Assembly (NCBI GenBank): GCA_038043445.1
Contig: JBBTBY010000066.1
Location: 1 to 64,000 of the forward strand
DNA: 64,000 nucleotides
Reading direction: 5' to 3'
Origin: Spirochaetota bacterium
GTDB taxonomy: Bacteria; Spirochaetota; Brachyspiria; Brachyspirales; JACRPF01
Below the pieces are notes generated by a model. It was given only the letters and a program-made list of their open reading frames with translations, had not been told where the DNA came from and searched no databases. Positions 29,660 to 37,353 of this stretch are shown here, one piece after another. Position numbers and translations under genes: made by a program. Each line of letters starts with the position of its first letter. Position 1 is the stretch's first letter.

Positions 29660-29714
29660 CACTCACCCCACCCCGACCCTCCCCTCTCTCACAGGGAAGT
29701 GAGAGAGGGGAGGG
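29660..29714 (-). repeat. Hairpin element, type B, left copy around the Omp85-like gene
   Basis: Outer tag CACTCACCCC (29660-29669), then perfect 16-bp arms CCCTCCCCTCTCTCAC (29677-29692) and complement (29699-29714) with loop AGGGAA. Its mirror copy lies at 31286-31343, in the opposite orientation. Confidence 0.75.
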
Positions 29715-29729
29715 AGTAATTTTTATTTT

Positions 29730-31208
29730 TTAAAATGCGCGGGTTATCGAAAAGATAAGCTTCCATCCCCTTCCAAGGAAAGGCCAGTCAAGGAATGATG
29801 CGACTCTCCCAAGGAAATACGGCCCTGTTTCATCCGCAGGATCGAAAAATCCGCTTCCATTGAATATGAATTTCTTTACCAATGCAACATCGAACGGGAA
29901 GAAAGGCATGAGAAGCCGTAAACCGAGACCGACCGAGAAACGCATCTGCCGAAGATCACCAATGGTAGCGATCATTCCCGGGTCGAAGATCGTCTGCCCA
30001 GAATCAAGAAAGCAGTATGTACCGAGCACATCGGTAATGAGGGGAATATTGTATTCAAATGAAAGAAGGAACATATTATTACCGGATGATATCATGTAAT
30101 TATGCCCGTTAATAAGATCTTCCACCAAGAACCCGAAACTTTCATACTCAAGGACCGACCATCCGCGGACATTGAACGCAGCAGCGATACTGTCCGGATA
30201 GTAATTGCTGAGACTTTGCACGAACGGATTGGGAAGCACTGTCATGAATTGAGATCGGATGTGTATCGATGTCGACCAGATCGGGATCGCCCACATGAAC
30301 TGTGCATTAATGCTCACATGACTGTACGCCCCGAACGACAGCGCAACATCCAGCCCGAGCTTCATACCATTGTTCGGGTACATGTAATTATTGCGTGTAT
30401 CATAGGTGAAATTGAATTCCGGGGCGAATGAAAAATACCACGGCGACTCCCAGCGGAATGTGTCCCCCTCTTGTTTATACACCGTAAGCCGCGATGCTAT
30501 CGGTATGTATTGCGCCCCATTCGTCGATGCATATTGCATTTCAGACTGCTGGTATTGATACAGCGATATGGACGCTCCGATATCGATAGACATGCTGCCA
30601 AAGAAATATAGTCCTGTTCTTGCACTCGCTCCGAAATCGCTGGTAGTGTACGAGGGGTACCTGCCCTCTCCGTAATTGGTCACGTCGCTAACCTGTGTGT
30701 CGTATGTCACATAATATGCCTGCAGCGCAAGGAGCCAAGGCAAACGAGCGATCTCCGGCAGCAAATATTCTCCCGCAATATCCTTCGTGTATTGGGAGAC
30801 ATTAAAATGCAGTTTCAGCCGCTGCGGTATGCCGAACAATGCCATGTCAAAATACTCAGAACCGAGTGAAAGCCCGGTGGATGGCGTATAAAGGGAATGC
30901 GGCACAAGCACTCGATTCGTTTCATTCGTACTTATCACTTTCGGCGGGACCGGCAGCCCGCGATAAAAATAGTCATTCGGGCCATGCGCTTTGTCCTGGA
31001 ATGAATCCGCATAATCATAGCTCACGAACCCTATGGGCAGACAGAATATATTGAGGAACGGTTTGCCCCACAGCCACGATTCGCGTATGTTCCATGTGTT
31101 CGTCTGTTGAATATTCGTAAAAACTGAATTGGTAACCGCATTCGTTTGCGCCGAAAGCGAGGGGAAGACAAGTGCGATCGACAGTGTAATTATAACAACA
31201 TTCCGCAT
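29730..31208 (-). CDS. Outer-membrane beta-barrel, Omp85/surface-antigen-like
   Basis: A 492-residue exported protein with a signal peptide ending near residue 20 (PSLSA-QT). The rest is made of alternating amphipathic strands rich in Tyr, Phe and Ser, ending in a C-terminal Phe, the usual barrel signal. The second half resembles the Omp85 barrel: AAFNVRGW, a LGTYCFLDSGQTIFD strand, and MRFSVGLGLRLLMPFFPFDVA. POTRA domains are lacking. The start is uncertain: ATG 31208 is 12 bases after GGAG, while ATG 31217 is only three bases after it. It is A+T-rich compared with neighbours and sits between inverted hairpin elements. Confidence 0.7.
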   Translation of the reverse strand: MRNVVIITLSIALVFPSLSAQTNAVTNSVFTNIQQTNTWNIRESWLWGKPFLNIFCLPIGFVSYDYADSFQDKAHGPNDYFYRGLPVPPKVISTNETNRVLVPHSLYTPSTGLSLGSEYFDMALFGIPQRLKLHFNVSQYTKDIAGEYLLPEIARLPWLLALQAYYVTYDTQVSDVTNYGEGRYPSYTTSDFGASARTGLYFFGSMSIDIGASISLYQYQQSEMQYASTNGAQYIPIASRLTVYKQEGDTFRWESPWYFSFAPEFNFTYDTRNNYMYPNNGMKLGLDVALSFGAYSHVSINAQFMWAIPIWSTSIHIRSQFMTVLPNPFVQSLSNYYPDSIAAAFNVRGWSVLEYESFGFLVEDLINGHNYMISSGNNMFLLSFEYNIPLITDVLGTYCFLDSGQTIFDPGMIATIGDLRQMRFSVGLGLRLLMPFFPFDVALVKKFIFNGSGFFDPADETGPYFLGRVASFLDWPFLGRGWKLIFSITRAF

Positions 31209-31285
31209 GAAAACCATAATCTCCAATACAGAGGAGAGATTACCATTTATCGATTAAATATCAAGCGCACAGTTTTTTATTTCCT

Positions 31286-31343
31286 CCCTCCCCCTCTCTC
31301 ACATCCCCGTGAGAGAGGGGGAGGGCCGGGGTGGGGGTGAGTG
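31286..31343 (+). repeat. Hairpin element, type B, right copy around the Omp85-like gene
   Basis: Perfect 17-bp arms CCCTCCCCCTCTCTCAC (31286-31302) and complement (31309-31325) with loop ATCCCC, followed by the outer tag GGGGTGAGTG (31334-31343). It is the inverted partner of 29660-29714. Confidence 0.75.
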
Positions 31344-34890: not shown

Positions 34891-35883
34891 ATGTACATTG
34901 AAACGATCAAAGCAAAGGCAAAGTCACTTCAGAAGAAAGTGGTCCTCCCCGAGGGTACCGATCCGCGGCCGCTCAAAGCCGCCGAAATGCTCAACAAAGA
35001 CAGGACGATGAAGGAAGTCGTCATTATCGGCAATCCCGATGCGGTGAATAAGCTCGCAAAAGAGAATGGCACCGCAATGGGCGATGTTACCATTATCGAT
35101 CCGAAAACAGCGCCGGAGCGCGAGCAGTACATCGACCATCTTTTCGAACGGCGCAAAGCAAAAGGGATGACAAAGGACCAGGCACGCGATCTCATCGAGG
35201 ATCAGCCGCTTTTCTTCGGCGCGGCGCAGGTAGCGACCGGACGTGTGGACGGCATGGTGGCCGGCTGCATACATCCCACCGCCGATACGATACGCTCGAC
35301 ACTTTATTGCGTCGGCCTTAAGCCCGGCAACAAAACGATATCGAGCTTTTTCATCATGATACACCCGGACACATCGTTCTTCAATCAAGGCGTGTTCATG
35401 TACGCCGACTGCGGCGTCGTCCCCAATCCGACAGCCGAACAACTCGCCGACATTGCCGAGGCATCGGCCGCGTCGTACAAGCAGCTTGTCGCCGATGACC
35501 CGCGCGTGGCGCTCCTTTCGTTCTCTACCATGGGGAGCGGCCAGGACCCCATCGTCGATAAGGTCATCGCTGCGAAGAAGATACTCGACGAGCGCAAGCC
35601 GTGGTTCCCCTTCGACGGCGAGCTTCAATTCGACGCAGCGATGATACCCGACATCGGCAAGCGCAAAGCCCCGAAATCGCTTGTCGCGGGCAACGGGAAT
35701 GTGTTCATTTTCCCGGACTTGAACGCAGGCAATATCTGTTACAAGGTGACCGAACGCCTCGCCAAATGCGCAGCCCTCGGCCCGATACTGCAGGGCGGGG
35801 CGAAACCGATCAACGATCTCTCACGCGGCTGTTCGGCGAAGGACATTGCTGAGATAGCGTATATCACGGCGCTGCAGGCGTAG
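34891..35883 (+). CDS. pta: Phosphate acetyltransferase
   Basis: A 330-residue enzyme that interconverts acetyl-CoA and acetyl phosphate. It is the short type without an N-terminal DRTGG region. Motifs include VVLPEGTDPRPLKAAEML at about 16-33, ATGRVDGMVAGCIHPTADTIRS, YADCGVVPNPTAEQLADIA at about 170, and VFIFPDLNAGNICYK near the C-terminus, which is the family signature. No acetate kinase lies next to it. GGGGAG precedes the ATG. Directly after its stop begins the DUF559 unit. Confidence 0.95.
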   Translation: MYIETIKAKAKSLQKKVVLPEGTDPRPLKAAEMLNKDRTMKEVVIIGNPDAVNKLAKENGTAMGDVTIIDPKTAPEREQYIDHLFERRKAKGMTKDQARDLIEDQPLFFGAAQVATGRVDGMVAGCIHPTADTIRSTLYCVGLKPGNKTISSFFIMIHPDTSFFNQGVFMYADCGVVPNPTAEQLADIAEASAASYKQLVADDPRVALLSFSTMGSGQDPIVDKVIAAKKILDERKPWFPFDGELQFDAAMIPDIGKRKAPKSLVAGNGNVFIFPDLNAGNICYKVTERLAKCAALGPILQGGAKPINDLSRGCSAKDIAEIAYITALQA

Positions 35884-35885
35884 AA

Positions 35886-35963
35886 CACACTCACCCATCC
35901 CCCGCCGCGGAATACGCAGCACCCCCTTCCCTCTCTCACGGGGAAGTGAGAGAGGGAAGGGGG
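35886..35963 (-). repeat. Hairpin element, type B, left copy around the DUF559 gene
   Basis: Outer tag CACACTCACCCATCCCCC (35886-35903), a 17-bp or so variable stretch, then perfect 18-bp arms CCCCCTTCCCTCTCTCAC (35922-35939) and complement (35946-35963), loop GGGGAA. It begins three bases after the pta stop codon. Confidence 0.8.
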
Positions 35964-35985
35964 AAGAGAAGAGCTGGGGACTGTC

Positions 35986-36408
35986 ATGATGACTAGAGAG
36001 TCTACCGTACGAGCACGCCGCTTACGGGCGGATCAAACAAGCACTGAGGTCATATTATGGGAGCATCTTTGGAACAGAAGGCTTGGCGGATTGAAATTCA
36101 CACGGCAACACACGATTCGATATATAGAAGACGGCAAGCCGTACTATTTTATTGCTGATTTTTACTGCGCACGACGAAAGTTATGCGTTGAGATTGACGG
36201 GTCGATCCACAATGACCAGAAAACGTATGACTGCATACGAAGCTCGTTAATGGCGCAATTCGGTATTCGCACCATTCGCTTTTCGAACGATGAAGTTCTG
36301 GAAAATGTCGATGCTGTTCTAAAAATGATTAATAGAAATACATCCGCTCCCCTTCCCCTCTCTCACTTCCCTGTGAGAGAGGGGAAGGGGCAGGGGGGGA
36401 TGGGGTGA
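35986..36408 (+). CDS. DUF559 (Vsr-like, PD-(D/E)XK) endonuclease-type protein
   Basis: A 140-residue protein of the DUF559 family, related to very-short-patch repair endonucleases. The core is IADFYCARRKLCVEIDGS with the putative metal ligands D58, E69 and D71, followed by H, DCIRSSLMAQFGIRTIRF and a final helix. The last 20 or so residues (from APLPLSHFPVREGKG) are encoded inside the right hairpin element, so that element supplies the stop codon. The gene is more A+T-rich than pta and thiL on either side and lies between inverted copies of the same element. A methionine pair opens the ORF; ATG 35986 or 35989 may be used. Confidence 0.82.
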   Translation: MMTRESTVRARRLRADQTSTEVILWEHLWNRRLGGLKFTRQHTIRYIEDGKPYYFIADFYCARRKLCVEIDGSIHNDQKTYDCIRSSLMAQFGIRTIRFSNDEVLENVDAVLKMINRNTSAPLPLSHFPVREGKGQGGMG

Positions 36409-36413
36409 GTGTG
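36349..36413 (+). repeat. Hairpin element, type B, right copy around the DUF559 gene
   Basis: Perfect 18-bp arms CCCCTTCCCCTCTCTCAC (36349-36366) and complement (36373-36390), loop TTCCCT, then the outer tag ending GGGGTGAGTGTG (36402-36413). It overlaps the end of the DUF559 gene, and its GGTGAG may act as Shine-Dalgarno for thiL. Confidence 0.8.
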
Positions 36414-36414
36414 C

Positions 36415-37353
36415 ATGACCCTCTCTGAATTCCAACTCATACACAAGATCAAATCCCTCCTCCCTGCCGACAACACCAATCTAGGCATCGGCGACGACTG
36501 CGCCGTCATCAAAGGCGCTCCCTACGATACGCTCGTCACCACAGACATTCTCGCCGAGGACGTGCACTTCAAACTCGACTATTATTCGTTCGCGGACGTA
36601 GGTTATAAATCCTGCATCGTGAACGCAAGCGACATACTTGCCATGGGCGGCGAGGTGACAGGATTCTTCGTATCCATCGCCGTGCCGAAAAAGCTTACTG
36701 ATGAGAACATCCTCGATTTCTACGCCGGTTTCAAGGAAGCGATGCTGCCCTTCGGCGTGACTATTCTCGGCGGCGACACGACATCGTCACCGTCGGGTTT
36801 CTTCATTTCGATAACCGCGGTGGGGCGTGTCCCAACGGGAAAGGCGCTCCTTCGAAGCGGCGCGAAAGCAGGCGATAATATCTACGTGCTCGGACGTCTC
36901 GGTGAAAGCGCGTACGGGCTTCATCTCCTCCTCGACAAAGGCGTGCGCGACAGGAACGATACGTTCGTTAAAGCGCATCTGCGTCCGCGGCTCTTCCCCA
37001 ACGAGTGGCGGAAAATCCGCGAGGGGTGTACAATAACAGCAGCTATCGATGTGAGCGACGGACTTTTCGCCGACCTCGGTCATATTCTTGAAGAGAGCAG
37101 ATCGGGCGCGGAGATCGATATCGATGGCGATGCATGGGCGCCGGTAAGCGGTCTTCTGAGCGCAGGCATCACCAAGGATGAAGCGCTCGGGTACATCCGT
37201 AGCGGCGGCGAGGATTACGCGCTTTTATTCACATCGCCCGATCGCGTGGACGGTGCGCTTGCCATCGGACGCATCATCGATGAGGCGGGGCTTTACCGGA
37301 GAACGCCGGGAGGGCGGCTACGGCTGGAAGCAAAAGGGTATAAGCACTTTTAG
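36415..37353 (+). CDS. thiL: Thiamine-monophosphate kinase
   Basis: A 312-residue kinase that makes thiamine diphosphate, the last step of cofactor synthesis. Family motifs are NLGIGDDCAVI at about 23-33 with magnesium-binding aspartates, TTDILAEDVHF at about 42-52, NASDILAMGG at about 70-79, LGGDTTSSPSG at about 118, and DVSDGLFADLGH at about 214. The ATG at 36415 is chosen; a GTG two codons upstream is also possible. The Shine-Dalgarno lies in the flanking repeat. Followed closely by yjbQ, another thiamine-related gene. Confidence 0.93.
   Translation: MTLSEFQLIHKIKSLLPADNTNLGIGDDCAVIKGAPYDTLVTTDILAEDVHFKLDYYSFADVGYKSCIVNASDILAMGGEVTGFFVSIAVPKKLTDENILDFYAGFKEAMLPFGVTILGGDTTSSPSGFFISITAVGRVPTGKALLRSGAKAGDNIYVLGRLGESAYGLHLLLDKGVRDRNDTFVKAHLRPRLFPNEWRKIREGCTITAAIDVSDGLFADLGHILEESRSGAEIDIDGDAWAPVSGLLSAGITKDEALGYIRSGGEDYALLFTSPDRVDGALAIGRIIDEAGLYRRTPGGRLRLEAKGYKHF

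Follow-up and report, generated by a model that had tools for sequence, protein, structure and literature searches.

What is a small nuclease gene doing between two inverted hairpins in the space separating pta from thiL, and is the arrangement a local curiosity or one copy of something that moves? The question arose from a 64,000-nucleotide stretch of a Spirochaetota bacterium genome (the window; GCA_038043445.1, contig JBBTBY010000066.1, positions 1 to 64,000), in which the initial annotation had described an A+T-rich DUF559 gene filling the pta–thiL gap and flanked by opposite-facing copies of one element, each made of an outer tag and a perfect 18-bp hairpin with a 6-nt loop. That description is confirmed by our analysis. 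The pta stop codon lies at 35881-35883 and the thiL ATG at 36415, and the unit (35886-36413) fills the gap. The gene (35986-36408, + strand, 140 aa) matches PF04480 with E = 5e-30 and 104 bits, against a gathering cut-off of 20.6, and has a GC content of 44% compared to 57% for both neighbours. The main hairpins at 35922-35963 (left) and 36349-36390 (right) each have perfect 18-bp arms and a 6-nt loop, with single-strand DNA fold z-scores of -7.2 and -7.7, and the 11-bp outer tags CACACTCACCC (35886-35896) and GGGTGAGTGTG (36403-36413, ending 1 nt before the thiL ATG) are exact reverse complements. The right hairpin and tag are in frame with the 3′ end of the gene and encode the last ~20 residues (SAPLPLSHFPVREGKGQGGMG, stop TGA at 36406-36408), as had been noted. 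The right tag, within GGGGTGAG (36396-36415), could in addition act as the ribosome-binding site of thiL, in which case the element may supply the start signal of that gene. One correction is needed, because the two hairpins are not identical: the arm originally given, CCCCTTCCCCTCTCTCAC, is that of the right end (type A), whereas the left end (type B) has the arm CCCCCTTCCCTCTCTCAC and carries an extra small hairpin at 35904-35920, between tag and main hairpin, which is present only in B-type ends and reads GCCGCGAAATACGCGGC in most copies. Both variants are perfectly paired, so changes on both arms have been matched.

The arrangement is not due to chance and is not confined to this locus. 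The arm pattern occurs 86 times in the genome with up to 2 mismatches, against 3 times for the same pattern read backwards, and the B-type arm likewise recurs genome-wide. The genome holds six DUF559 matches, one of them a truncated copy on contig C3, and all six lie at different loci between hairpins of this kind. Gene orientation relative to the A and B ends is constant where both ends are present, and the tags lie only at the outer ends. Several shorter units keep A and B ends with part of the gene (C3), a gene remnant with stops (contig C71) or no gene (C7, C98), and dozens of further hairpin sites exist. Within the window, a solo A-type tag plus hairpin lies at 29660-29716 (+) and a solo hairpin plus right-facing tag at 31281-31343 (+); these two inverted elements with outward tags bracket a 498-aa gene, possibly for an outer-membrane protein (29730-31226, - strand), as if a host gene had been captured between two elements or both gaps had been hit. 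One solo element (locus L024, 2475-2567) joins an A half and a B half, and is either a deletion product of a full unit or an ancestral empty form. In several copies (loci L020 ~2504, L030 ~2976, L050 ~1138 and L051 ~3483) a second repeat of ~54 bp (CGTGCAACA...TTGCGCCGA), itself able to fold, is inserted in the loop of the main hairpin, and appears to be a nested element that seems to prefer this position. The terminal inverted repeats of the units read ACACTCACCC...GGGTGAGTGT. No target-site duplication was seen by eye in the flanks of ~16 units, most of which have A before and T after them, and units often follow directly on a stop codon. Full copies show dN/dS values of 0.06-0.17 where these can be computed, so the protein is kept, while the non-coding ends are 86-97% identical among copies although silent sites of the gene differ by 33-77% (pS) between the four closest copies, which means that the ends are selected or homogenised.

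What, then, are the ends? Read outward from the hairpin, the tag region is the mirror of the purine arm, with T in place of two of the A's, at 14 of 14 positions at both ends; only 2 (right end) and 1 (left end) of 2,000 shuffles reach this match. The predicted third strand is GGGGATGGGGTGAG at 36396-36409 (+) for the A end and, on the - strand at 35886-35903, GGGGGATGGGTGAGTGTG for the B end. Each end has the make-up of an intrastrand triplex motif, i.e. the layout described by Holder et al. 2015 (PMC4666352) for the TM/TMECO motifs related to Box C repeats. Under the published ITxF search rule, which allows loops of 1-6 nt, the right end fits with a loop of 6 and a linker of 5 nt, whereas the second loop of the left end, 18 nt long and holding the small hairpin, exceeds the limit.

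We next asked whether the association of DUF559 with such repeats is general. One scan of species genomes gave 80 DUF559 loci from many phyla, and of the 75 with enough flanking sequence 62 have matching repeats on both sides, direct or inverted (score >= 14), against 8 of 221 displaced flank pairs and 5 of 78 random ORFs in the same loci; 13 of the 75 loci show no bracketing repeat. Within 250 bp, 84 purine-arm hairpins of 9 bp or more were found in 45 of the 80 loci, compared to one hairpin in 58 displaced loci, and many carry a 9/9 mirror third strand. In 296 Spirochaetota genomes, 28 are both motif-rich and DUF559-bearing, 12 are motif-rich only, 21 have DUF559 only and 235 have neither (odds ratio 26), and copy numbers correlate (rho 0.55), although relatedness of the genomes was not corrected for. 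Of the 40 motif-rich genomes, 12 have no clear DUF559 gene (some are incomplete, but one, G080, is 99% complete), and 21 DUF559 genomes have few or no motifs of the scanned type. Hairpin similarity follows protein similarity (Mantel rho 0.21, 0 of 999 permutations), but this signal is modest and comes in part from related loci. In E. coli, the DUF559 gene ycjD lies between sapF and fabI with such hairpins downstream, and a fragment resembling the ycjD 3′ end is repeated between these hairpins (locus L173, downstream of 3294), a trace of a second copy. In another locus (L121, 2261-6868), DUF559 with several hairpin copies lies in frame inside a large restriction-modification-type ORF, so the element can be read through as a protein insert. 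We found no published report of a DUF559-repeat link, in a search limited to open-access literature.

Evidence for mobility comes from one Spirochaete genus, in which plsC and a hydrolase gene are separated by 112-113 bp in two species (genomes G119 and G069), without a leftover hairpin, and by a 729-bp stretch holding hairpins plus DUF559 in a third (G139). This is an occupied/empty pair at gene level, as divergence is too high to resolve the junction to the base. Other candidate empty sites were not clean. At pta–thiL itself, the sister genome G001 lacks the unit, but it is distant and a different small ORF lies in the gap. In E. coli, 3,362 of 5,426 genomes match across most of the ycjD query, and of the strains without it the four that we opened hold other genes at that place (efflux/MFS genes in three, an SMI1/KNR4 gene in one; PMC12817139). 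A different arrangement is seen in locus L085 of genome G032, where the DUF559 gene lies between two identical 176-bp direct repeats (1299-1474 and 1831-2006), each a full hairpin element plus flanking bases. It looks like a recent event at an existing hairpin site, points to a duplication or homing-like event, and is not explained by a simple terminal-repeat transposon.

As to what might move the unit, the structure model of the protein (AF2, pLDDT 86) has a predicted EDxHD/Vsr-like PD-(D/E)XK fold, with best Foldseek hits to 3hrl (NGO0050), 3r3p (the catalytic domain of the homing endonuclease I-Bth0305I, E 2e-4) and PvuRts1I. Residues E21, D58, E69, D71 and H75 are invariant in 49 sequences and are candidate catalytic residues. 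Another DUF559 protein, VsrA of Caulobacter, was required for the DNA-damage response in a methyltransferase mutant (PMC12907096), so members of the family can affect DNA in vivo. No RAYT/Y1 (PF01797) transposase gene was found in this genome. Such genes exist in 13 of the 15 Spirochaetota genomes searched, but in related genomes only 3 of 20 Y1 loci have hairpins nearby, never on both sides, against 15 of 20 and 9 of 20 for DUF559 loci. So the hairpins go with DUF559.

Our preferred explanation, which we consider fairly likely though far from settled, is that the unit is one copy of a small mobile element with the order end B, DUF559 nuclease gene, end A. In this view, each single-stranded end could fold into a hairpin and further into a purine-motif intrastrand triplex; the ends would extrude when the DNA is single-stranded or supercoiled, the nuclease would recognise its own hairpin/triplex type and cut or nick near the tag, and repair or recombination would then copy the unit elsewhere, without a visible target duplication. 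Internally deleted copies, i.e. hairpin pairs or lone hairpins, would be non-autonomous and spread in trans. The partnership and mobility are well supported, and our data directly establish the structure of the unit, its multicopy state, its presence or absence at one site, bracketing across phyla, co-occurrence at the genome level, purifying selection on the nuclease and ends that are selected or homogenised. By contrast, triplex formation, nuclease activity, the catalytic roles of the conserved residues, action on the hairpin, the cutting step and the copying route are inferred, without cleavage or binding data. Speaking against this explanation are the motif-rich genomes without a clear DUF559 gene, the DUF559 genomes with few or no motifs, the loci without a bracketing repeat, the loci with direct instead of inverted repeats, and the proposal that a DUF559 protein of Caulobacter is a mismatch-repair nuclease (PMC12907096). 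The interpretation in the initial annotation, i.e. a mobile unit in which the nuclease plays the part that RAYT transposases play for REP hairpins, is partly supported: the unit is multicopy, has internally deleted derivatives and an empty site in relatives of another occupied locus, and the partnership, of which the annotation knew no described case, is general across phyla, but the RAYT comparison holds as an analogy of layout only. Of the outcomes named beforehand as speaking against it, none that could be computed (the same unit fixed in the same place in all relatives, or elements absent elsewhere in DUF559-bearing genomes) was found. What had been missed is the scale of the phenomenon, that the tag is the mirror third strand of an intrastrand triplex motif, that the repeat belongs with the Box C/TM repeats, and that some DUF559 loci carry direct rather than inverted copies, which leaves a homing-type route open.

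That route is the most serious alternative, although we regard it as unlikely. The triplex hairpins could be older, independently spread repeats invaded by DUF559 as a homing endonuclease gene, which would cut the hairpin and be inserted by repair against another hairpin-DUF559-hairpin copy, leaving a hairpin on each side. The fold related to I-Bth0305I, the L085 locus, which looks as if an existing hairpin site had been split and duplicated, the 63-bp identical direct repeats of locus L107 and the fact that lone hairpins outnumber gene-bearing units are all in line with it. However, the tags restricted to the outer ends in this genome, the fixed orientation of A and B ends to the gene and the short units that keep both ends with gene remnants fit a unit that moves whole, and the empty site in G119 and G069 shows no hairpin.

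It could also be that another enzyme, a RAYT/IS200-type or DDE transposase, moves the hairpins in trans and that DUF559 merely rides inside. The layout resembles REPINs and some motif-rich genomes lack DUF559, but this possibility is doubtful given the absence of Y1 transposases from this genome and their mostly hairpin-free loci elsewhere; in addition, no other gene recurred inside the bracketed units that we examined, and the tag is neither GTAG nor CGTC. Least likely of all is that there is no element, and that the hairpins are ordinary terminators, mRNA-end hairpins or unstable spots that collect insertions, beside which a repair or defence gene often lies. Units do often sit just after a stop codon, TM sites are unstable in E. 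coli (PMC4666352), and DUF559 has weak matches to restriction enzymes, but only weak PADLOC matches were obtained for a defence role, the hairpins have no U-tract and no terminator-like hit, there is no Rfam match at its threshold (weak microRNA hits being generic hairpin matches), and the displaced and random-ORF controls are near zero. Matching left and right copies, shared A and B ends and remnant copies need a unit rather than chance proximity.

A broader reading, which we hold to be only somewhat more likely than not, is that DUF559 nucleases are the missing mobilisers of the widespread Box C/TM repeats: a distinct class of mobile DNA in which a homing-type nuclease acts on triplex-forming hairpin ends, present across bacterial phyla including E. 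coli (ycjD), with non-autonomous copies spread in trans. The describers of these repeats wrote that they never found mobility functions around them and that the mechanism of the instability is unclear (PMC4666352), while DUF559 is a large family whose cellular role is mostly unknown. The bracketing found here joins the two and makes both questions testable in E. coli K-12, with ycjD and its ~23 repeats. If this reading is right, it adds a nuclease-driven kind of small mobile element beside RAYT/REPIN, and may offer an enzyme that recognises DNA triplex or hairpin structure. What would be new is the partnership as a kind of mobile element, with an enzyme unrelated to, and a DNA structure different from, those of RAYT/REPIN, and without the intron or intein of homing genes.

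Compared with known systems, the gene product shares Pfam family and fold with Caulobacter VsrA, proposed to be a mismatch-repair nuclease (PMC12907096), E. coli YcjD (PMC1189080) and NGO0050 (3hrl), which have been studied or predicted as stand-alone repair-type nucleases, with no repeats reported around them in the literature that we could search. With MITEs and terminal-inverted-repeat transposons the unit shares inverted ends and internally deleted non-autonomous copies, but no DDE transposase was seen inside the units read, and no target-site duplication was seen. The Box C and TM/TMECO motifs (PMC4666352; Bergler 1992, Box C having first been described at envM, which is fabI) are likewise C/G-rich purine-arm hairpins with a mirror third strand, multicopy and mostly intergenic, with 23 copies in E. 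coli K-12, occurrence in more than 260 genomes, unstable neighbourhoods and two types, A and B, found as close inverted pairs in E. coli; they were described as repeats with no mobility gene nearby, whereas here they bracket DUF559 genes in many phyla, and the B end has a longer second loop. REP/REPIN repeats with RAYT (TnpA-REP) transposases (PMC3116915, PMC3733652) have in common with our unit short palindromes, inverted pairs that also occur elsewhere, an enzyme gene flanked by the repeats, non-autonomous copies in trans and an intergenic location, but here the enzyme is an EDxHD/PD-(D/E)XK-type nuclease and not a Y1 HUH transposase, the tag is CACTCACCC rather than GTAG or CGTC, and the end is by its sequence triplex-capable. 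Finally, homing endonucleases of the EDxHD family such as I-Bth0305I share the predicted catalytic-domain fold and the character of a nuclease-only mobile gene, but the present unit has no intron or intein host and no single conserved site, is bracketed by palindromic repeats, is multicopy within a genome, and has spread into many unrelated sites.
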